Positions 27,829 to 38,177 of a stretch of DNA of 38,528 nt are shown here, piece after piece. The position numbers were made by a program, and so were the translations under genes. The DNA is from a bacterium (lineage in GTDB: Bacteria > Vulcanimicrobiota > Vulcanimicrobiia > Vulcanimicrobiales > Vulcanimicrobiaceae): assembly GCA_028869385.1 (NCBI GenBank), contig JAGWSR010000108.1, forward strand, positions 1 through 38,528, given 5' to 3'. Within the stretch, counting starts at the first letter, position 1; every line of letters starts with the position of its first letter. A model generated the notes under the pieces. It was not told the origin of the DNA and searched no databases. It saw nothing but the letters and a program-made list of their open reading frames with translations.

Positions 27829-28113
27829 GTGTCACCCTGAGCCTGTCGAAGGGCCGCACGTGTCACAATGAGCGCCCCGTGTCACCCTGAGCTTGTCGAA
27901 GGGCCGCACGTGTCATCCTGAGCCTCACCGTGTCATCCTGAGCCTGTCGAAGGGCCACCCGTGTCACAATGAGCGCCACGTGTCATCCTGAGCTTGTCGA
28001 AGGATGCATCGCGTGTCGTGCCCTCGCCCTTCGACAAGCTCAGGGTGACACGGTGAGGCTCAGGGTGACGTGGAGAAAGGCACGCTCGCCCTTCGACAGG
28101 CTCAGGGTGACAC
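27829..28113. repeat. Cluster of CCTGAGC(C/T)TGTCGAAGG-type dispersed repeats, both orientations
   Basis: Full units of about 25 bases in the forward orientation lie at 27829-27853, 27879-27903, 27930-27954 and 27980-28004. Partial forward units (gtgtcacaatgagcg or gtgtcatcctgagcc) lie at about 27860, 27910 and 27961. Reverse-orientation units lie at 28027-28051 and 28089-28113, with a partial at 28056. The core is CCTGAGCCTGTCGAAGGG. Another copy is at 38204-38228. The forward and reverse blocks could fold against each other. Nothing coding is credible here. Confidence 0.9.
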
Positions 28114-28134
28114 GGAGGGGGTCGGGAGCGGGCG

Positions 28135-28452
28135 TTAGCTGAGGATTTTGATGAAGGTGTCGGTGAGGCGGTTCATTTCCGTTTGGTCGATTGCGCCGCT
28201 CTTGCCGGGGCGCAGGCATTGGGCCATGCTGGCGGTCATAAGTTGGATCGTGGCGCGCTCGAGTGCGGCTTTGGCGGCGCCCATTTGGTGTGCGATCGCG
28301 TGGCAATCGCGCCCTTGCTCGATCATGCGATGCACGGCGCGGACCTGACCTTCGACGCGGCGTAGGCGCGCGAGGATCTCGGCGGTCGTCGCGGGCTCGA
28401 GTTGGAGCTTTCCTTCAGGCGACTCCGGATGTTCGCGCGGTTTTCTCGGCAT
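28135..28452 (-). CDS. CsoR-family repressor, CstR-like (thiol-sensing, no metal His)
   Basis: A 105-residue CsoR/DUF156 all-helical regulator: EILARLRRVEGQVRAVHRMIEQGRDC-HAIAHQM then AALERATIQLMTASMAQCL (quoted in part). Cys50 and Cys79 occupy the two family cysteine positions. The histidine that completes the Cu(I) site of CsoR, four residues before the second Cys, is Ser75 here. Two Cys without His is the pattern of CstR, which senses persulfide by forming Cys-Cys sulfur links. The neighbouring sulfide:quinone oxidoreductase supports that reading. The ATG at 28452 lies about 7 bases after a predicted -10 box, so the message may be leaderless. It probably represses itself and the divergent operon. 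Confidence 0.82.
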   Translation of the reverse strand: MPRKPREHPESPEGKLQLEPATTAEILARLRRVEGQVRAVHRMIEQGRDCHAIAHQMGAAKAALERATIQLMTASMAQCLRPGKSGAIDQTEMNRLTDTFIKILS

Positions 28453-28456
28453 GGGG

Positions 28457-28511
28457 ATACTGTACCCCGTATGAGGGAGTCCTTGCAATACCCTAGGGGG
28501 TATGGTATAAG
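28457..28511. promoter_or_regulatory. Divergent promoter with CsoR-type operator(s)
   Basis: Plus strand: -35 TTGCAA (28483-28488), 17-base spacer, -10 TATAAG (28506-28511), ATG 7 bases later at 28518. Minus strand: the same TTGCAA is its own complement and serves as -35, with TACAGT (28464-28459) as -10 at 18 bases, and ATG at 28452. The plus spacer contains ataccctagggggtat (28488-28503), a G/C-tract inverted repeat with ATAC/GTAT ends that is typical of CsoR-family operators. A second, looser ATAC-N8-GTAT lies at 28457-28472 over the minus -10. Confidence 0.65.
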
Positions 28512-28517
28512 CGAGCC

Positions 28518-28760
28518 ATGAGTATCTCGAATCCGCTCCTCGTCCCGGCCCGCGAACGCGGCTGGAAAGTCGAAGCCGCCGTGCGCGGCATCGCCGGAAC
28601 GCTCGTCCTCGCAAGCGTCCTCTTGGCGCTTCGCGACGTGCGGTGGCTCTGGCTTACCGCCTTCGTCGGCGCGAACTTATTGCAGTCGTCGCTCACCGGC
28701 TGGTGTTTGATGTCGAACTTTCTCGCGATGCTCGGCGTCGGGCGCAACGCGCGTGCGTAA
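28518..28760 (+). CDS. DUF2892 (YgaP-type) inner-membrane protein
   Basis: An 80-residue protein with an amphipathic N-terminal helix (ARERGWKVEAAVRGIAGTLVLASVLLAL) and a second hydrophobic helix ending in TGWCLMSNFLAMLGVG, the characteristic DUF2892 ending (TG-x-C-x-hydrophobic...LG). In YgaP this domain is the membrane anchor of a rhodanese. Here it stands alone, without a sulfurtransferase. The ATG at 28518 has no Shine-Dalgarno and lies about 7 bases after a predicted -10. It is the first gene of the RND/SQR operon and overlaps the next gene by 8 bases. Confidence 0.85.
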   Translation: MSISNPLLVPARERGWKVEAAVRGIAGTLVLASVLLALRDVRWLWLTAFVGANLLQSSLTGWCLMSNFLAMLGVGRNARA

Positions 28761-29895
28761 GCTCGCAATCGCGGTGCTCGCCGTAGCCGGCACGCTCGCG
28801 TCGGGGTGCGCTTCGCACGCCGGCGACGCCGCCGATGCGCAGAGCGTTCCCGTCACCGTCGCCGTCGCGCGCGACGCGTCGTTCGCGGCGCCACTCGAGC
28901 TTTCGGGTTCGCTGACGGCGGTGCAAAACGTGACGCTCGGAGCCGCCGCGGCCGGACGCATCGTGCGCGTGAACGTGCGCGTCGGCGACCGCGTTCGGGC
29001 GGGCGAGGTGCTGGCGCAAGTCGATCCGAGCGCGTACAGCGCGCAGTATGCCGGCGCCCAGGCGGGTGCGGGCGCAGCCGTCGACAGCGAGCGCGCCGCG
29101 GGCGCCGCACTCGAGCAGGCTCGCAGTCGTATGAATCTCGCGCAGAGTACGGCGCGTCGCATGAACGCACTCTACGCCGCGGGAGCGATCTCGAAGCAGC
29201 AGCAAGACGAATCGCAAGCGAGCGCCGCCGCGTCGCAGGCGGCGTATGCGCAGGCGCAGGCGAGCCTTGCGGCGGCGCGCGGACTCGCGGCGCAGGCGCA
29301 AGCGGGCGTCGCGGCCGCGGCCGTTCCGCTCGGTGAGACGGCGATCGCCGCACCGTTCGACGGCGTGGTCACGCAGAAGCTCGTCGAGCCCGGTGCCGTG
29401 GTCGGAGCCGGAAGTCCCGTCGTCGCCGTGCAGAACACGAGCGATCTCGAACTCGACATCGCCGTTCCCGAAGATCGCGTCGCCGCGCTCGTGCCGGGCA
29501 CGCGCGTGGCGGTACGCGTCGATGCGCTCGGCAGCGATGCCCTCGGCGGCCGCGTCCGCGCGATCGTTCCGTCGCAAGATCCGGCGCTCCGCTCCGCAAC
29601 CGTGCGCGTCGGCGTCGAACCGCACGCGGGACTGCTCCCGGGCATGTTCGCGCGCGTCAGTATCGCCGGTGCGCCGCAGCGCGGCGTCGGCGTTCCGATG
29701 AGCGCGCTCGTCACGCGTGCGGGCCAGTCGGGCGTCTTTGCCATCGTCGATAAGACCGCGAGTTTCGTGCCCGTGCAAACCGGCGCATCGCAGCACGGTC
29801 TGATCGCCGTGACGGGCATCAAGGCCGGGACCCAAGTTGCCGTGAGCAACGTCGCGCGTCTCACCGAGGGTTCGTCCGTGAGCGTGCAGCCGTAA
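28753..29895 (+). CDS. RND efflux periplasmic adaptor (membrane fusion protein)
   Basis: A 380-residue HlyD/AcrA-type lipoprotein. The lipobox is TLASGC-A (Cys at about 19). The order is lipoyl half (LELSGSLTAVQNVTLGAAAAGRIVRVNVRVGDRV), a long Ala/Gln-rich coiled-coil hairpin (about 100-190), the second lipoyl half (TAIAAPFDGVVTQKLVEPGAVV), beta-barrel (LELDIAVPEDRVAALVPGTRV) and the membrane-proximal domain. It links the inner-membrane pump to TolC. The GTG at 28753 overlaps the DUF2892 gene. The stop overlaps the pump start (TAATG), so the pump is coupled to it. Confidence 0.93.
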   Translation: MRKLAIAVLAVAGTLASGCASHAGDAADAQSVPVTVAVARDASFAAPLELSGSLTAVQNVTLGAAAAGRIVRVNVRVGDRVRAGEVLAQVDPSAYSAQYAGAQAGAGAAVDSERAAGAALEQARSRMNLAQSTARRMNALYAAGAISKQQQDESQASAAASQAAYAQAQASLAAARGLAAQAQAGVAAAAVPLGETAIAAPFDGVVTQKLVEPGAVVGAGSPVVAVQNTSDLELDIAVPEDRVAALVPGTRVAVRVDALGSDALGGRVRAIVPSQDPALRSATVRVGVEPHAGLLPGMFARVSIAGAPQRGVGVPMSALVTRAGQSGVFAIVDKTASFVPVQTGASQHGLIAVTGIKAGTQVAVSNVARLTEGSSVSVQP

Positions 29896-32800
29896 TGAAC
29901 GCACCGAACCTTCCCGGGCGCATCGCGCGCTACTTTCTCCAGTCCAAGCTCACGCCGGCGATCCTCGTCGCGATTACCGTCTGGGGATTGATCGCGATCT
30001 TCCAGACACCGCGGCAAGAGAACCCGCAGATCACCATGCCCGCCGCCACCATCGTGACCCGCTATACGGGCGCGACGTCGGAAGAAGTGCAGCGCCTCAT
30101 CACGGAGCGCGGGGAGCGCGTGCTGCAAGAGGTGCCCGGCATCGAGCACATCTATGCGACGTCGACGCAGGATGCGTCCATCCTCACCGTGCTCTTTCAC
30201 GTCGGCGACGATCCCACCAAGTCGTTCGTTAACCTCTACGATCAAGTTTTCGCGCATCTGAACGAACTGCCGCCCGGTGCGTCGCAGCCGCAGATCACGC
30301 CGCTCTCGGTCGACGATATTCCGATCGTGGTGCTCGCGCTCCACGGTCGCAACTACGATCGCGGCGAACTCACCCGCGCGGCCGAACGGCTCGTGGACGC
30401 CATTCGACCGATCGACGGCGTCTCGACGATCGCCACGTACGGCGCTCGTCCGCGCGAGGTAAACGTCACGCTCGACCCGACGAAACTCGCCGCCTACGGT
30501 CTCTCGCCCGTGCAACTCGCGCAAGCGCTCGGCGTCACCAATCTGAGCGCCCCGGTCGGCACGCTGCGCGACGGCGCGAGTGAGATTACCGTGCACGCGG
30601 GGACACCGTTTTCGAGCTTGGAGCAAGTCCGCTCGCAGATCGTCAACGTCAGCAACGGGCAGCCCGTCACCCTGGGCCAAGTTGCCGACGTCACGCTCGG
30701 CTACGCACCCGAAGAGACGAAGACGCAGTTCGGCTACGGCGGCGCCGCGCGCGTCGCCGACAAGAGCGCGCAGCCGTCGGTGAGCATCGCCATCGCGAAG
30801 AAGGCAGGCAGCAACGCGGTTGCCATCGCGAACCGCATTCTCGCGGCGGTGAAGGCGACCGACCTGCCACCGGGCGTCGAAGTCACCGTCACCCGCAACG
30901 ACGGCGATAAGGCGAATCTCGCGGTCAACGAATTGATCGAACGTCTCGCCGAGGCGATCGCGATCGTCGTGCTGCTGTTGCTCGTACTCGGTTGGCGCGA
31001 AGCGCTGATCGTCGCGACGGCGATTCCGCTCACGCTGTTCGTCACGCTCGGCGTAGGCATGCTCACCGGGCAATCCATCAACCGCATCACCCTCTTCGCG
31101 CTGATCCTTGCGCTCGGGTTGCTGGTGGACGACGCGATCGTGATTGTGGAGAACATCCACCGGCACTTTCACGCCGAGCCGAATCGCCCGCGCGCCGAAT
31201 CCACGGTGCGCGCCGTGGCCGAGATCGGCAGCCCGACGACGCTCGCGACGGTCACGGTCATGCTCTCGTTTTTGCCGATGCTTTTCGTGACGGGAATGAT
31301 GGGGCCGTACATGCGGCCGATTCCGCTCAACGTACCGGTCGCCATGATCGCCTCGCTCTTGATCGCCTTCGCGATCACGCCGTGGGTCGCGATGAAGCTC
31401 CTCGGCAAGAGCAAAGCAAAGGTCGAACACGGCGTTCCGCGCTTCGTACGTCCGTTCCGCAGCTTTCTCGCGCGAATGCTCGACGACGCGCGTCTCGGCA
31501 AACGGTTTCTCGCGGGGTTGCTGATCGCGTTCGCGCTCAGCGCCGCCCTTCCGGTGGCTACGCTCGTGAAGTTCCGCATGTTGCCGGATGCGAACGAAAC
31601 CTCATTCCTCGTGGCGATCGATGCGCCGCCGTCGAGCACGGTTGCGCAGTCGACGGCCATCGCCGACGCGGTCGGCGCGCGCCTCGCGCAGTATGCCGAG
31701 GTGGAGAACTACCAAGTCTTCTCCGGCGTCAGTTCCGTCCCCGATCTCGCCGCGTTGTTGCAGGGAACGGTCTTTCGCAACGCGCCGAATCAATCCGACA
31801 TTCGCGTGAATCTCCTACCGAAGCACGACCGCCGCGTTCAATCGGCGCCGTTCGTCGCACAGGTTCGACCCGAATTGCAGAAGATCGCCGCGTCGTACGG
31901 TGCAAGCCTGCGCATCCTGCAGGTGCCGCCCGGACCGCCCGTGCGCGATACGATTCTCGCAAAGATCTACGGGCCCGATCCGGAGGTTCGCCGCGCGATC
32001 TCGTCGCGGATCATCGGGATGATGCAGCACGAAGCGGGCGTCGTGGACATCGATCCGAGTTTCAAGGCCTTGCCCTCGGCGGTGCAGTTGCAGTTCGACG
32101 CGCGCAAAGCGGCCCTCGCCGGCGTGGATGCCGCGACGATCGCGCAGACGCTCGGCATGGCGCTGCACGGCGCGAGCGTCTCGACGCTCCACACGCCCGA
32201 CGACACCCGGCCGGTCGGCATCTTCCTGCGCTTCGCGCCGCAGTATCGGCGCGATGCGGCCGCGCTCGGCTCGATCATGATCCCCACGCGCAGCGGCGGC
32301 CTCGTACCGCTCTCCGCCGTCACGAACGTGGTGGCGACCGACGTCGCGCAGCCGCTCTATCGCGACGACTATGAAAACGTGAGCTACGTCGGCGCCGACA
32401 TGGCCGGACGGAGTTCGACCTACGCGGTCATCAGCATGGCGCTGCAACTCGCGCGCCATCCTCTTCCGGCAGGCTATCGCGTGGATTGGGGCGGCGAGTG
32501 GCACCTGACCAACACCGTCTTCGCCGATCTCGGACGCGCGATGCTGATCGCGTTCATCCTGATCTACTTCCTGCTCGTCGCGCGCTTCCGTTCGTTCCGA
32601 ACGCCGCTCGTGGTGCTCGCCGCGGTGCCGCTCGCGGTGATCGGCGTGCTGCCGGGCTTTGCCCTGCTCGCGCCCTTCGGGATCTACTTCTCGGCGACCG
32701 CGATGATCGGGTTGATCGCGCTCATCGGCATCGTCGTACGAAACTCGATCATTTTGATCGAGTTCATCGAGGATAAGCGCAAAGAGGGCGTGCCCCTGCG

Positions 32801-33332
32801 CGATGCACTCGTCGATGCGGCGACCGCGCGAACTCGGCCGATCTTTCTCACCGCGGCGGCGGGCGTGCTCTCGTCGATCGTCATCGCGGCCGATCCCGTG
32901 TGGAGCGGTCTCGCATGGGCGCTCGTCTTCGGCATGACCGCATCGGCGGTGCTCTCGGTGCTTGCGATCCCGCTCATCTACAGCCGCCTTGCGAGCAGCA
33001 GCGTTGGTGCGGAGGCGCAGAGCGAGCAACTTCCGCTCGAACAGCGCGCGCTGGCGAGTTTCGTCGCGTTTCCCGAACTCGACGGGTTCGTGCTCGAAAC
33101 GCCGACGTTGCCGCGCATGCTCGAAGGCGAGAGCGTCGAGCTCGACGCCGAGGTATTTCGAGGCGAAGGCGACGGCGTGGATGCGGTGGCGCACCTCATC
33201 GGAAGCTTCCGCGTGGAGCGCTCGCGCATCGCATTCTCGAGCGCATACGGTACGCTGCAGGGCCAGCAATATCTCACCCTACGCTCCGCCAACGGAAATC
33301 CGCCGGCATGGAGGCCGCTCGAACATGCGTAA
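29895..33332 (+). CDS. RND efflux permease with extra C-terminal domain
   Basis: A 1145-residue resistance-nodulation-division pump with 12 predicted membrane helices and two large periplasmic loops. TM4 carries the proton-relay Asp pair in LALGLLVDDAIVIVENIHRH. The TM10-region motif is GLIALIGIVVRNSIILIEFIEDKRKEG. The usual RND protein ends soon after IPLIYSRL (about residue 1030). This one continues about 113 more residues (EQLPLEQRALASFVAFPELDGF ... ISRF-type alpha/beta sequence, with FRVERSRIAFSSAYGTLQGQQYLTL) predicted to be cytoplasmic. The extension has no family I recognise. The substrate is not inferable from sequence. It overlaps the tolC-like gene by 8 bases. Confidence 0.93.
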   Translation: MNAPNLPGRIARYFLQSKLTPAILVAITVWGLIAIFQTPRQENPQITMPAATIVTRYTGATSEEVQRLITERGERVLQEVPGIEHIYATSTQDASILTVLFHVGDDPTKSFVNLYDQVFAHLNELPPGASQPQITPLSVDDIPIVVLALHGRNYDRGELTRAAERLVDAIRPIDGVSTIATYGARPREVNVTLDPTKLAAYGLSPVQLAQALGVTNLSAPVGTLRDGASEITVHAGTPFSSLEQVRSQIVNVSNGQPVTLGQVADVTLGYAPEETKTQFGYGGAARVADKSAQPSVSIAIAKKAGSNAVAIANRILAAVKATDLPPGVEVTVTRNDGDKANLAVNELIERLAEAIAIVVLLLLVLGWREALIVATAIPLTLFVTLGVGMLTGQSINRITLFALILALGLLVDDAIVIVENIHRHFHAEPNRPRAESTVRAVAEIGSPTTLATVTVMLSFLPMLFVTGMMGPYMRPIPLNVPVAMIASLLIAFAITPWVAMKLLGKSKAKVEHGVPRFVRPFRSFLARMLDDARLGKRFLAGLLIAFALSAALPVATLVKFRMLPDANETSFLVAIDAPPSSTVAQSTAIADAVGARLAQYAEVENYQVFSGVSSVPDLAALLQGTVFRNAPNQSDIRVNLLPKHDRRVQSAPFVAQVRPELQKIAASYGASLRILQVPPGPPVRDTILAKIYGPDPEVRRAISSRIIGMMQHEAGVVDIDPSFKALPSAVQLQFDARKAALAGVDAATIAQTLGMALHGASVSTLHTPDDTRPVGIFLRFAPQYRRDAAALGSIMIPTRSGGLVPLSAVTNVVATDVAQPLYRDDYENVSYVGADMAGRSSTYAVISMALQLARHPLPAGYRVDWGGEWHLTNTVFADLGRAMLIAFILIYFLLVARFRSFRTPLVVLAAVPLAVIGVLPGFALLAPFGIYFSATAMIGLIALIGIVVRNSIILIEFIEDKRKEGVPLRDALVDAATARTRPIFLTAAAGVLSSIVIAADPVWSGLAWALVFGMTASAVLSVLAIPLIYSRLASSSVGAEAQSEQLPLEQRALASFVAFPELDGFVLETPTLPRMLEGESVELDAEVFRGEGDGVDAVAHLIGSFRVERSRIAFSSAYGTLQGQQYLTLRSANGNPPAWRPLEHA

Positions 33333-34617
33333 ACTTCCCGTCATCGCGATGGCCTTCGGGCTCGCGTTCGGCGCGCTGCCGCTCGTCGCAAACGCGGCAA
33401 CGCCGCTCTCGCTCGATACGGCCGTCGCGCTCGGCCTCAAGCAGAACCTGGAGTATGCACGATCGCTAGCGCACGTCGATGCGATCGCAGCGCAATTTCG
33501 CCAGGCGCGCGCGCCGAAGGCGCCGTCGCTCGCACTCCAAGATACCTACCAATACGTCAATCCGGTCGCCGCGCTCAGCACGCCGATGGGCGCGATTCCC
33601 TTCAGCACGGTCAACGCCACGAACGTGCCGTTGCTCGCGTTGCAATACACGCTCTTCGACGGCGGCGCGACGGCGGCGCGAGCGAGCGCGGCCGCGGCGG
33701 GACTCTCGGCAGCCGAAGCGAGCGCGCAGGAGGCGCGCGGAGCGACGATCGCGCGCGTTTCGAAGGCGTATTACGATCTCGCCGCGGCGCTGCAGCTTCA
33801 GAGCGTCGCCGAACGGGGCGTCGCGGTGGCGCAGGCGCACGAGCGCGATGCCCGGACGATGCTCGCCGCCGGAACGATTCCACGCGCGGATCTGCTGCGC
33901 GCCCAGGCCGAGCTTGCGAGCGAGCGCGTCAATGCCATCCAGGCCGACAACGGCGTCGATCTCGCGCGCGTCGCACTCGACAGCGTGCTCGACGTACCGC
34001 TCGATACCGTCTACACGCCGACCGAACCGCTCGACGCGCCGCCTCCGCGTGTGGCGCTTGCGTCGCTGCTCGTATCGGCCCACAGCGCACGCGGAGAACT
34101 CGCCGCCGCGCGCTTCGCGGTGGATGCGGCTCGGCACGCCATTACGGCGGCGCGCGCGGGCGGCGTGCCGCAGGTCAAGGCGACGATCGCCGACGGCAAC
34201 ACCCAGCCGGCGGTGGTAGGCGGCTACCACAACCAGTTCTCGCTTGGACTCTCGGCGGTCTGGACGCTCTTCGACAACGGGTATACCGCCGGGCGCGTCG
34301 CCGAGGCCGATGCGGGACTGCACGATGCGCAGTTGAGTCTCGCGCAGATGCAAAACGGCGTTGACGTCGAGGTGCGCGAGGCCTACCTGAACCTGAACGA
34401 AGCAGCCGCGCGCGTCGAGGCGGCGCGCGACCTCGTCACCTACAGCGACGAGAATTTGCGCCTCGCGCAGGTGCGCTACCGCGGCGGCGTCGGTACCGCG
34501 CTCGAGCTGCAAGACGCCGAGTTGCGCGATCGCACCGCGCAGCAAACGCTCACTCAAAGCGAAGCCGCCTTGCGGCAGAGCGTCGTCCAACTGCGTTACG
34601 TCGCAGGGCTCTTATGA
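33325..34617 (+). CDS. TolC-family outer-membrane efflux protein
   Basis: A 430-residue outer-membrane channel. The signal peptide (VIAMAFGLAFGALPLVANA) precedes two OEP repeats rich in long Ala-rich helices: LDTAVALGLKQNLEYA, LQYTLFDGGATAARASAAAAGL, AYYDLAAALQLQSVAERG, and in the second half LSAVWTLFDNGYTAGRV, VREAYLNLNEAAARVEAARDL and VRYRGGVGTALELQDAE. It completes a tripartite pump with the two genes upstream and implies a diderm cell. The ATG at 33325 lies within the 3' end of the pump gene. The next gene follows after 18 bases with a strong GGGAGGA. Confidence 0.93.
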   Translation: MRKLPVIAMAFGLAFGALPLVANAATPLSLDTAVALGLKQNLEYARSLAHVDAIAAQFRQARAPKAPSLALQDTYQYVNPVAALSTPMGAIPFSTVNATNVPLLALQYTLFDGGATAARASAAAAGLSAAEASAQEARGATIARVSKAYYDLAAALQLQSVAERGVAVAQAHERDARTMLAAGTIPRADLLRAQAELASERVNAIQADNGVDLARVALDSVLDVPLDTVYTPTEPLDAPPPRVALASLLVSAHSARGELAAARFAVDAARHAITAARAGGVPQVKATIADGNTQPAVVGGYHNQFSLGLSAVWTLFDNGYTAGRVAEADAGLHDAQLSLAQMQNGVDVEVREAYLNLNEAAARVEAARDLVTYSDENLRLAQVRYRGGVGTALELQDAELRDRTAQQTLTQSEAALRQSVVQLRYVAGLL

Positions 34618-34635
34618 CGACGCCGGGAGGACTCG

Positions 34636-36057
34636 ATGAATATCCTCATCCTCGGTGCGGGGTTTGCCGGTCACACGGCAGCCCTGCATCTCTCACACCT
34701 GGTTCGCGATACGGCGCAGATCACGGTCGTCGCCCCAAATAATCGCTTCACGTGGTTTCCGAGTCTGATCTGGGTCGGCACCGGTACGATGGCGCCCGAG
34801 CGCGTGCATTTCGAACTCGCGCCGGTGTACGAAAAACTTGGCATCACCTACGTTGGCGGACGAGCCGAGATCGTCGCGCCGGACGACCGCACGGTGACGG
34901 TACGTCTCCCGAACGGATCCACGCAGACGATCGCGTACGATTTTCTCCTGAACGCGACGGGCCCGTACCTCAATTTCGAGGGAACGCCGGGATTGGGCCC
35001 CAAGTGCGGCACGACACAGAGCGTCTGCTCGGTGGAACACGCGACGGCGGCGCGGGACGCCTATCTCGAGAGCGTCCGCGCGATGGAGCGCGGTCAACGG
35101 CAGCGACTCGTCGTCGGCGTGGGGCATCCCGCCGCCACCTGCGAGGGCGCGGCGTTCGAATACGTGATGAATCTCGACTGGGATCTTCGTAATCGCGGCT
35201 TGCGCGATAAGGCCGATCTCGTGTGGCTCACGAACGAGCCCGATCCGGGCGACTTCGGCGTGGACGGCGTGGAGGCGAAGAAGCGCGGGAGCGTGGTGAC
35301 GGGCAAGGCGCTCGTGCAGATGCTCTTCGACGAGTCCAAGATCAAGCCGATGATCGCCGCCGGTGTTACGAAGGTCGAACAGGGCACGATCACCTACGAT
35401 CAAGTCGGCGTGGATCCAGGGACGCTCGACTACGATTTCGCGATGCTGATTCCGCAATTTCGCGGCATCCCGCTCAAGTACGTCGCGCACGACGGGAGCG
35501 ACATCACCGAGAAGATGACGTTGCCGAACGGCTTCATGCGCGTGGATGCCGACTATTCGGCGAAAGCCTACGACGAATATCGCGCTCACGATTGGCCTGC
35601 GTTGTACCGATCGCCGTCGTACGACAACGTGTACGCGGCCGGCATCGCGTTCGCGCCCCCGCATCCGATTTCGAGAGGGAAGAAGACGAATGCCGGTACG
35701 GTGATCCAAGCCACCCCGCCGCGCACGGGGATGGCCTCGGGGATCATGGGGCGCACCGTCGCGTACAATATCGCCGATCAAATCGCGGGTCGCGAACCAT
35801 CGCATCACGCGCGCATGAGCGAGATGCCCGCCGCCTGCATCGCCTCGATGGGCAAATCGATCTGGAACGGCTCGGCGGCCTCGATCATCATGGTTCCGGT
35901 GGTGCGAGACTTCGAGAAGTATCCCGAGTACGGTCGCGACATGGATCTGTGCGATCTCGACGTCGGCATCGGCGGCGCATGGACGAAGCGCCTGTTGCAC
36001 GACGCCTTCATGTGGAAGCTGCAAGCCAAACCCGGCTGGCAGATGATACCGGAGTAA
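34636..36057 (+). CDS. sqr: Sulfide:quinone oxidoreductase-family flavoprotein
   Basis: A 473-residue two-dinucleotide-fold flavoprotein. The FAD motif is NILILGAGFAGHTAALHL at the N-terminus. Cysteines sit in the SQR-type contexts: Cys124/Cys131 in GPKCGTTQSVCSVEHA, Cys169 in ATCEGAAFEY (counterpart of the CFGPAYE motif) and Cys401 in AACIASMG. It ends in an aromatic/basic segment (WTKRLLHDAFMWKLQ) that could insert into the membrane. It is predicted to oxidise sulfide to polysulfide/persulfide and reduce quinone. A GGGAGGA five bases before the ATG is the best ribosome site in this operon. It is longer than classical SQRs, so a divergent SQR-like enzyme is possible. Confidence 0.85.
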   Translation: MNILILGAGFAGHTAALHLSHLVRDTAQITVVAPNNRFTWFPSLIWVGTGTMAPERVHFELAPVYEKLGITYVGGRAEIVAPDDRTVTVRLPNGSTQTIAYDFLLNATGPYLNFEGTPGLGPKCGTTQSVCSVEHATAARDAYLESVRAMERGQRQRLVVGVGHPAATCEGAAFEYVMNLDWDLRNRGLRDKADLVWLTNEPDPGDFGVDGVEAKKRGSVVTGKALVQMLFDESKIKPMIAAGVTKVEQGTITYDQVGVDPGTLDYDFAMLIPQFRGIPLKYVAHDGSDITEKMTLPNGFMRVDADYSAKAYDEYRAHDWPALYRSPSYDNVYAAGIAFAPPHPISRGKKTNAGTVIQATPPRTGMASGIMGRTVAYNIADQIAGREPSHHARMSEMPAACIASMGKSIWNGSAASIIMVPVVRDFEKYPEYGRDMDLCDLDVGIGGAWTKRLLHDAFMWKLQAKPGWQMIPE

Positions 36058-36063
36058 CGAACG

Positions 36064-36171
36064 ATGGGAAAATTCTGGCGTACGTTCTGGCCCTATCAGT
36101 TCTGGCGCTTCATCGTCATCAACACAAAGATGTTCGCCATCGCCCGAGGCTGGATCGGCCCCGCGCATTAA
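36064..36171 (+). CDS. 35-residue aromatic small membrane-type protein
   Basis: A short reading frame six bases after the SQR stop, with GGAG nine bases before its ATG. The peptide begins MGKFWRTFWPYQFWRF and continues IVINTKMFAIARGWIGPAH. It has four Trp, five Phe, several basic residues and a hydrophobic middle, consistent with one amphipathic or membrane helix. Its position, ribosome site and non-random composition argue that it is a real gene co-transcribed with sqr, perhaps a membrane partner or anchor of SQR. No family is claimed. Confidence 0.55.
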   Translation: MGKFWRTFWPYQFWRFIVINTKMFAIARGWIGPAH

Positions 36172-36251: not shown

Positions 36252-38177
36252 TTGACGAAGACCGCCTATTTCCTCATTGCATTCGCATCATGCGCCCTGC
36301 TTAGTGCTTGCGGAGGTGGCGGTGGGGGAGGCAGTACGCTGCCGAGCACCCCGAGCGCTCCTCAGCCTACGCCAACGACATCGGCATCGCTCATGCCGGG
36401 CCAATATGTCGTGCAGGCAACGCCAACAACGGTTCCATTTTCGAGCGGCGGATTCACTGGGACTCTGGCACTGCCTGGGGCTGCGCCGCTACCGGGTGCA
36501 AGCCCCGGAGCGGGACTTGGGCTCGTTACCGTGACGGTGACGACCGCGCCGCCCGCCGGCGTTCCGGTTCTCCAACGCGGCATCCATTCGCAGAAATTCC
36601 CCGTACGATTTGCGACCGGCTCCAATACGCCGCTCATGTACATCAGCCTGACCTTCACGCAGCCGATTCAGTTGGGCGGGGTTCCCGGGGTTACGTTGAC
36701 CGCACCGTCGAGCAATGCGTACCTTGGCGAAAACGTGTACCTTGGATCGTATGAGCCGCCGCCCTCGAATCTTTGGGGATCTGTCGCGGGACCGGCGGTG
36801 GTCACTGGTGCGACGGCGCGATTGGACATCGTCTATAGTGGATCAATTTCGGTGGCCGCGCTACATCCGGTGACCTTTGCCGTCTACGAAACGGGCCCAG
36901 CCAGTTTGAGCCTTTCCCTTGCGAATCCGTTGGTGATGGGAGCGCCCTCGACCGACCAGGTCGCCATATCGGTTCGCGATCAATACGGGGTTTCGATTAC
37001 CGGGGGGCTCAAGGTGCCGATTCAGCTTACGAGTGACGACACGACCGGACGAACCGCGTTAACGGCCTCAGTATTTTCGAACGCCTCGCAAACTGCGCCA
37101 CTCGTGTTCGATGGCAAGGGCGTCCGATTCACGTTGACGGCGTCAGAAGGTGCGCTGCAGACACAGTTCGCGTGCGTTTCAAGCCTCCCGAAGGAAAATC
37201 TCGTGTCGGGATTGGCTCAGTCGAATGGAGTCGTGGGAGATGCCGCATTTGGACCGGACGGAAATTTTTGGACGACTTTTAGCGGCAACTACGGTTCCAG
37301 CGTTATAGCGAAAATTTCGCCGACCGGGAACGTCACGAGTTATACCGACACAACGCCGACGGTGATTGACCAAGGCAACGCACCAATTGCAGCTGGGTCG
37401 GACGGTAACATCTGGACGACGTTTTTCGATCAAAGTTACTTCTCCGGTGTGCTGATTCGCGTCACGCCTAGCGGCGCAATCAGTGAGTTTCCGGGTCCAC
37501 AGTCAATGCAGCAGGGAAGTAGTGATATCGGTCAATTGGTTCTTGGCCCGGATGGTGCAATGTGGTTCACACTGAGCGCATCGGACCCTTATGTCGCCGA
37601 TAGCGTCGGTATCGGACGCGTTGATATGAGCGGGCACGTTTCCGTGGTCGCCGCGACGACGAACGCTCCGACGAGCCTCGTCTCCGGGCCGGACGGAAAT
37701 CTGTGGTTTCAGGATGGTGCGAATATCGATAAGCTCACGACCTCCGGAGCGCTCACGAAATATACATTGCCCGGCGCAACGGCGACTCCGTCAAGATTCG
37801 TTGTCGGCCCGGATGGGCAGTTCTGGATGCCGTTTGCGTATGGCACGAAGACGCTCGTCGAGTTTTCGACGTCGGGCGCGGTTGTCGCCACGCACGATCT
37901 ACCGAGTACGTTGAATCCGACGATCGAAAGTGTCATCGCGAGTGGAAATTACGTCTATTTCACGGACTCGCAGTCCGAGAGCGTGGGCCGAATCGATGTG
38001 CTCGGCAATACGACGTGGTATCCAACCTACTCCGGCCTCGTTAACGGGTTTCAGGGCCCGCTCTATATCGTCAAAGGTCCGTCGAACTCGCCGTATCTCT
38101 CATCGCAGGTTGTTTTGAACGAGTCGCCGCTGCAATTTGGTGCCGGTCTCACACCGCTCGATCTGACGCTATGGTAA
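36252..38177 (+). CDS. Lipoprotein with streptogramin-lyase/NHL-like beta-propeller
   Basis: A 641-residue lipoprotein. The signal peptide has the lipobox LLSAC-G (Cys at about 20), then a Gly stretch and a Pro/Thr linker. The middle (about 60-320) is beta-rich and Ig-like (VTVTVTTAPPAGVPVLQRGI; VAISVRDQYGV). The C-terminal half is a propeller with repeated blade motifs GPDGNFWTT, GSDGNIWTT, GPDGAMWFT, GPDGNLWF and GPDGQFWMP. It is a surface protein of unknown ligand; the lyase active site cannot be confirmed. The start is TTG at 36252, with GAGG six bases upstream and no ATG in frame before the signal peptide. Base use is less GC-rich than the flanking operon. Confidence 0.8.
   Translation: MTKTAYFLIAFASCALLSACGGGGGGGSTLPSTPSAPQPTPTTSASLMPGQYVVQATPTTVPFSSGGFTGTLALPGAAPLPGASPGAGLGLVTVTVTTAPPAGVPVLQRGIHSQKFPVRFATGSNTPLMYISLTFTQPIQLGGVPGVTLTAPSSNAYLGENVYLGSYEPPPSNLWGSVAGPAVVTGATARLDIVYSGSISVAALHPVTFAVYETGPASLSLSLANPLVMGAPSTDQVAISVRDQYGVSITGGLKVPIQLTSDDTTGRTALTASVFSNASQTAPLVFDGKGVRFTLTASEGALQTQFACVSSLPKENLVSGLAQSNGVVGDAAFGPDGNFWTTFSGNYGSSVIAKISPTGNVTSYTDTTPTVIDQGNAPIAAGSDGNIWTTFFDQSYFSGVLIRVTPSGAISEFPGPQSMQQGSSDIGQLVLGPDGAMWFTLSASDPYVADSVGIGRVDMSGHVSVVAATTNAPTSLVSGPDGNLWFQDGANIDKLTTSGALTKYTLPGATATPSRFVVGPDGQFWMPFAYGTKTLVEFSTSGAVVATHDLPSTLNPTIESVIASGNYVYFTDSQSESVGRIDVLGNTTWYPTYSGLVNGFQGPLYIVKGPSNSPYLSSQVVLNESPLQFGAGLTPLDLTLW

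Follow-up and report, generated by a model that had tools for sequence, protein, structure and literature searches.

The DNA stretch analysed here (38,528 nucleotides, hereafter the window) carries an operon that we read as a probable sulfide or sulfane-sulfur stress operon (probability about 0.6), in which a thiol-sensing repressor would control a sulfide:quinone oxidoreductase (SQR) and an RND pump that would export a product derived from sulfane sulfur. The window belongs to a genome of 3.08 Mb, of which near relatives carry the name Candidatus Eremiobacterota. The repressor gene is divergent from a series that runs DUF2892, adaptor, RND permease, TolC, SQR and a 35-aa protein (Table 1). 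A preliminary description of the same DNA had named all of these genes, and all are found in the sequence. The 8-base overlaps that it gave for DUF2892/adaptor and RND/TolC and the 18-base gap between TolC and SQR are borne out, whilst the adaptor and RND genes overlap by 1 base (TGATG) and not by 3, and the small open reading frame does not overlap SQR by 8 bases but begins 6 bases past the SQR stop codon and in frame with it. A consensus scan for a sigma-70-like promoter found none.

Table 1. Features of the operon and its surroundings in the window, with loci in other genomes that are discussed in the text (window positions unless a locus is named).
Feature	Positions	Strand	Evidence or remark
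CsoR-family repressor, 105 aa	28135-28452	-	PF02583, 72.8 bits; Cys50/Cys79, Ser75
Operator-like inverted repeat TACCCTAGGGGGTA	28489-28502	.	between divergent genes; TACCCN4GGGTA form
DUF2892, YgaP-like transmembrane domain, no rhodanese domain	28518-28760	+	PF11127, 42.4 bits
RND periplasmic adaptor, lipoprotein (LASGC)	28753-29895	+	TIGR01730, 188 bits, above cut-off
RND permease, HAE-1 type	29895-33332	+	PF00873, 561 bits
RND C-terminal extension	32997-33329		residues 1035-1145
TolC-family outer membrane channel	33325-34617	+	PF02321, 160 bits
SQR, 473 aa	34636-36057	+	Cys131/Cys169/Cys401; phmmer to A. ferrooxidans SQR
35-aa small protein MGKFWRTFWPYQFWRFIVINTKMFAIARGWIGPAH	36064-36171	+	profile match after SQR; partner of SQR clade
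REP-like repeats (GTGTCACCCTGAGCCTGTCGAAGGGC)	27829-28126		inverted and direct
Virginiamycin B lyase-like (Vgb) lipoprotein	36252-38177		
100-aa protein, Bacteroidota-type loci	L053 16425-16733; L062 4879-5178; L064 7166-7465; L069 17343-17672		
CoA-disulfide reductase with rhodanese domain	L132 3233-4858		

Two further features flank the operon in the window: a cluster of repeats just downstream of the repressor gene, and a Vgb-like lipoprotein gene downstream of the operon that is apparently unrelated to it.

The operon is conserved. Six further genomes of the Eremiobacterota keep its gene order, with proteins that are 44-90% identical, so the arrangement is more than chance; conservation in relatives had been set beforehand as a check on the preliminary description. 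The full order of repressor, DUF2892, adaptor, RND, TolC, SQR and small protein is repeated in L032, L033, L070 and L073. In L075, DUF2892 was not detected and a DUF302 gene is inserted between TolC and SQR, and L035 holds the portion from adaptor to small protein only, its contig beginning within the adaptor gene. The Eremiobacterota genomes that bear names are metagenome assemblies.

The search covered 98 genomes, including that of the window. SQR, counted at an identity of at least 63%, is present in 16/98, and the pump, counted where an RND permease of at least 46% identity shared its contig with a repressor gene or came with a shared operator site, in 24/98. The pump is present in 13 of the 16 genomes with SQR versus 11 of the 82 without it (p 2e-7, kinship uncorrected). 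Within the 24 pump genomes SQR lies in the operon in seven, elsewhere in six, and is absent from 11. The pump can thus be kept where this SQR is wholly missing, and SQR is an optional member of the pump operon. The constant core consists of repressor, adaptor and RND permease, with DUF2892 and TolC as the usual additions. DUF302 genes are frequent in pump operons that lack SQR (L118, L119, L120, L126), and in L121 a cytochrome c gene, cydAB and DUF302 stand between pump and repressor. DUF302 genes also lie in or adjoin the pump operons of L075 and L144; in these various loci they sometimes take the place of SQR. Genes of this family have been found in sox clusters (PMC5037610, PMC11034169).

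The inverted repeat between the divergent genes is the single TACCCN4GGGTA site of the whole window genome. An exact site is found at the repressor gene in 23/24 pump genomes, which hold one to three sites each, and 20 of the 21 repressor loci tested have a site upstream of the gene, if a shortened variant in L130 is counted; the exception (L109) is not linked to a pump. Of ten pump-free genomes, eight have no site, and the other two have a single one with a different core. In L121 the site falls between repressor and DUF302. In two genomes (G026 and G057), SQR is on a separate contig and the site TACCCATAGGGGTA occurs 95 nt upstream of it; as the two belong to one genus, they count as one event. 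Since the same site precedes an SQR gene on a separate contig, a regulon in which pump and SQR are joined in trans is supported for this genus, in keeping with the shared control proposed earlier, and the repeat is best called a putative operator that the repressor would contact. An operator before SQR genes away from the pump was also sought in L071, L072, L076, L078, L079 and L080 and was not found there. The form of the site is common to CsoR-family repressors generally and, taken alone, does not identify the signal.

The repressor is the sole PF02583 protein of the window genome. Its Cys50 and Cys79 occupy the positions of CsoR Cys36 and Cys65 and are kept in the pump-linked homologs, and the position of the copper-ligand histidine is taken by Ser75, with serine in all pump-linked repressors (about 20 different sequences), so that the Cys-His-Cys Cu(I) site of CsoR is broken by a change of histidine to serine. 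Most unlinked paralogs of the same phylum have HxxxC or an FrmR/RcnR-like end. The cysteine pair and the lost copper histidine support the description of the repressor as CstR-like, as first proposed. In a CsoR-family tree, one of the checks that had been suggested, the pump-linked repressors form a clade (99/98 support), which, in an alignment of 87 columns with long branches, has L099 and chain 7mq1 of S. pneumoniae as its neighbours (92/88) and is separate from the CsoR, InrS and FrmR/RcnR-like groups. The PDB names 7mq1 as CsoR; we take it to be CstR, and on that footing the tree weakly sides the repressor with CstR. Copper and formaldehyde were both considered as signals for the repressor and were rejected on the ligand pattern.

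Two rival explanations concern the family of the regulator. If the operon exported copper or another metal and its regulator were a metal sensor of the CsoR type, this would account for a CsoR-family protein and a TACCC-type operator such as copper operons have, but this reading is very improbable: the histidine ligand is serine in all pump-linked homologs, the RND permease scores 316 bits to the CusA/CzcA model of metal (HME) pumps, against a cut-off of 701, and 493 bits to the HAE-type model RND_permease_2, the adaptor has one cysteine (that of the lipobox), three histidines and five methionines, and the operon holds no copper genes. An FrmR-like response to formaldehyde, to which a weak match to the FrmR model could point (33.5 bits versus a cut-off of 133), has a negligible chance of being correct, as the repressor clade is separate from the FrmR/RcnR-like paralogs and the operon lacks a formaldehyde dehydrogenase.

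The assignment of the SQR is supported by fold and by cysteines, and the identification made earlier holds. The protein matches the SQR of A. ferrooxidans (phmmer E 8e-39), and Cys131, Cys169 and Cys401 align with its Cys128, Cys160 and Cys356, so that all three catalytic cysteines are present; they are invariant in 21 homologs. In the FAD-binding GxGxxG motif, G7, G9 and G12 are invariant in the alignment. The AlphaFold model (pLDDT 88.6) has the SQR fold, its best PDB matches being SQRs, with that of A. ferrooxidans first (E 1e-40). By fold and cysteines the protein is a real SQR, presumably active. Relatives at 41-49% identity occur in Chlorobiota, Chromatiaceae, Campylobacterota, Bacteroidota, Anaerolineae, Bacillota, Hydrogenothermaceae and other groups. 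Type VI (SqrF), which has a short one-helix C-terminal domain and a Val-Cys-Ile motif (PMC9666304), was weighed on account of the Chlorobi and Chromatiaceae relatives and rejected; the window SQR has 72 residues past Cys401 and the motif Ala-Cys-Ile.

Matches to a profile of the 35-aa protein lie directly downstream of SQR and on the same strand in 38/38 loci of this SQR clade with a complete SQR; 17 of them, together with the window, went into the profile, and the remaining 21 are independent of it. A conserved and unannotated small protein accompanies this one SQR clade over many phyla. The small proteins that follow this clade are 35-70 aa long (L032-L070 among them). The same profile had no match near the SQR-like genes of plasmid loci L138-L151, and the 35-aa protein itself matched nothing in Pfam or NCBIfam. 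Its mean hydropathy of about 1 does not make a clear transmembrane segment, and it has an aromatic core that surrounds a Q-x-x-R motif, with N-x-K after it, which suggests a helix at the membrane surface. It may be a small subunit or an anchor of SQR. A model of SQR read through into the small protein gave the small part at low confidence.

The permease has an HAE-1 relay (D412, D413, R949, R979 and T986) that is invariant among aligned homologs; it corresponds to the AcrB-type relay of Asp-Asp, Lys, Arg and Thr, in which Arg949 replaces the lysine (Lys940 of AcrB). Many Eremiobacterota pumps carry a C-terminal extension, which is absent from L070, L075 and other phyla. The extension (1036-1145) is modelled as beta-rich at a pLDDT of 70.5, and its comparison with the PDB gave no match.

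Relatives of the permease are tied to sulfur genes in many phyla, which bears out the link between pump and sulfur drawn in the preliminary description. An SQR-family gene lies within 10 kb of 21/54 plasmid relatives (E 1e-100) versus 0/60 ordinary RND pumps, sampled from 1422 records (Fisher p 1e-8, the records not being independent). The count of 21/54 is an underestimate, since annotated loci of Paracoccus and Salinivibrio have additional FAD oxidoreductases and sulfur genes beyond those in the search output. Annotated neighbours of the pumps include ArsR, rhodanese, DUF2892, a metallo-beta-lactamase (MBL) protein resembling persulfide dioxygenase (PDO), YeeE, DUF302, DsbA and cytochrome bd. 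In the pump tree, whose outgroup is far and whose rooting is unsure, the Eremiobacterota pumps, L131 and a Pseudanabaena pump from a locus with rhodanese, cydAB and an FAD oxidoreductase form one clade (100/98), and Bacteroidota, proteobacterial, cyanobacterial and Bacillota pumps form a second, largely sulfur-linked clade (100/99). Three pumps from lipid/AarF loci without sulfur genes stand apart, and this branch of the RND subfamily is a point against sulfur export.

Three side observations concern these relatives. Loci of the Bacteroidota type hold an unannotated 100-aa protein, with no Pfam match, between RND and DUF2892. L053 is filed as Comamonas, yet its pump groups with Bacteroidota, which a binning error may explain. 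In L132, from a distant relative within the phylum of the window, a CoA-disulfide reductase with a rhodanese domain is encoded near a related RND pump and an ArsR gene.

A broad drug or electrophile pump, with a non-sulfur substrate, could also be placed under a thiol-sensing repressor, SQR having been added because one switch answers to electrophiles and to sulfane sulfur alike. Several findings are compatible with this: the nearest solved relatives of the permease, TriC and MexK, are drug pumps, 11 pump genomes are without SQR, and sulfane sulfur can induce an ordinary multidrug pump in the MexR/MexAB system (PMC9495516). We nevertheless hold it doubtful, given that the subfamily, unlike ordinary RND pumps, adjoins sulfur genes in many phyla, occurs with sensors of two families, ArsR and CsoR, that are unrelated to each other, and is often accompanied by DUF302 where SQR is missing from the operon. 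Alternatively, the operon could protect the cell from cyanide and similar poisons of respiration: SQR and rhodanese would yield thiocyanate, cytochrome bd would sustain respiration and the pump would export a by-product. This might explain why cydAB repeatedly adjoins these loci and why plasmid loci have rhodanese partners; it is quite unlikely, as no cyanide-specific gene was noticed among the listed loci and cydA of the window genome is on another contig.

Our preferred reading remains a sulfur stress operon, but one part of its earlier form is not supported. It had been suggested that efflux may replace the usual downstream steps. Outside the operon, the window genome has five rhodanese-domain matches, one cydA (cytochrome bd) gene, two DUF302 genes and weak MBL matches that may or may not be persulfide dioxygenase. 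Because rhodanese genes exist elsewhere in this genome, replacement of rhodanese and dioxygenase by efflux is not supported; in Paracoccus, moreover, the neighbours of a related pump are YeeE, a sulfur transferase and a PDO-like MBL protein, and some of the pump operons have no SQR.

In the mechanism that we propose for the sulfur stress operon, the CstR-like repressor would bind TACCCTAGGGGGTA and thereby hold the promoter region between the divergent genes. On oxidation of sulfide inside the cell, a per- or polysulfide would modify Cys50 and Cys79, across subunits as in CstR, and the modified repressor would leave the DNA, allowing the operon to be made. SQR, probably accompanied at the membrane surface by the 35-aa protein, would oxidise sulfide into the quinone pool and release sulfane sulfur as polysulfide or thiol persulfide. 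The DUF2892 protein and the RND-adaptor-TolC assembly would then clear a product derived from sulfane sulfur out of the periplasm or inner membrane and release it outside the cell, with polysulfide, elemental sulfur and organic persulfide as candidate products; this substrate is the most conjectural element of the scheme. A coupled sulfur-export machine, in which SQR and the small protein hand sulfane sulfur to the DUF2892 protein and tripartite pump for release of polysulfide or elemental sulfur, seems unlikely. It would amount to a dedicated export route for the SQR product, for which, to our knowledge, there is no agreed transporter.

 The operon suggests that some bacteria pump out, besides oxidising, the reactive sulfur made from sulfide. 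If this is true, the usual SQR-rhodanese-dioxygenase scheme lacks an export branch by which many Gram-negative bacteria detoxify sulfide, an RND subfamily annotated as multidrug gains a definable physiological role, and the question of how oxidised sulfur exits the cell envelope becomes directly testable.

The general idea of a sulfur-responsive repressor acting with an RND pump is already published for the ArsR family: Li and colleagues wrote that the apparent targets of ArsR repressors of the sulfane-sulfur type include genes for RND pumps, which probably transport sulfur compounds (PMC12423496). Our literature search found no paper that joins a CsoR-type repressor, DUF2892, RND and SQR, and what is new here is the CstR-like wiring, the operator in trans and the small protein directly downstream of an SQR clade. 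As with SqrR, BigR and sHdrR (PMC12423496), a thiol-sensing repressor is encoded beside SQR, rhodanese and RND pump genes, but the repressor here has a CsoR fold, not that of ArsR, and both the operon layout and the SQR clade are different.

In the CstR regulon of Staphylococcus aureus and in that of YrkD in Bacillus licheniformis (PMC9918477), SQR is likewise under a repressor of the CsoR family that conserves two cysteines and lacks the copper histidine. Their clusters contain rhodanese, TusA/DsrE and PDO genes without an RND pump, whereas the core here is RND-adaptor-TolC with DUF2892. YgaP shares the DUF2892 transmembrane domain but combines it with a rhodanese; the operon protein has PF11127 only, and a rhodanese is either encoded by a gene of its own or missing from the operon. 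The permease resembles TriC and MexK in its HAE-1 architecture, these being the nearest solved structures by sequence, and differs from them in having arginine where AcrB has Lys940, in its sulfur-gene context and in the C-terminal extension seen in Eremiobacterota. The window SQR, finally, has the fold, FAD motif and three catalytic cysteines of the type I enzyme of A. ferrooxidans, but it shares about 27% identity with that enzyme, is 473 aa long, belongs to a separate clade, has aspartate at the position of His198 and is followed by the small downstream protein.
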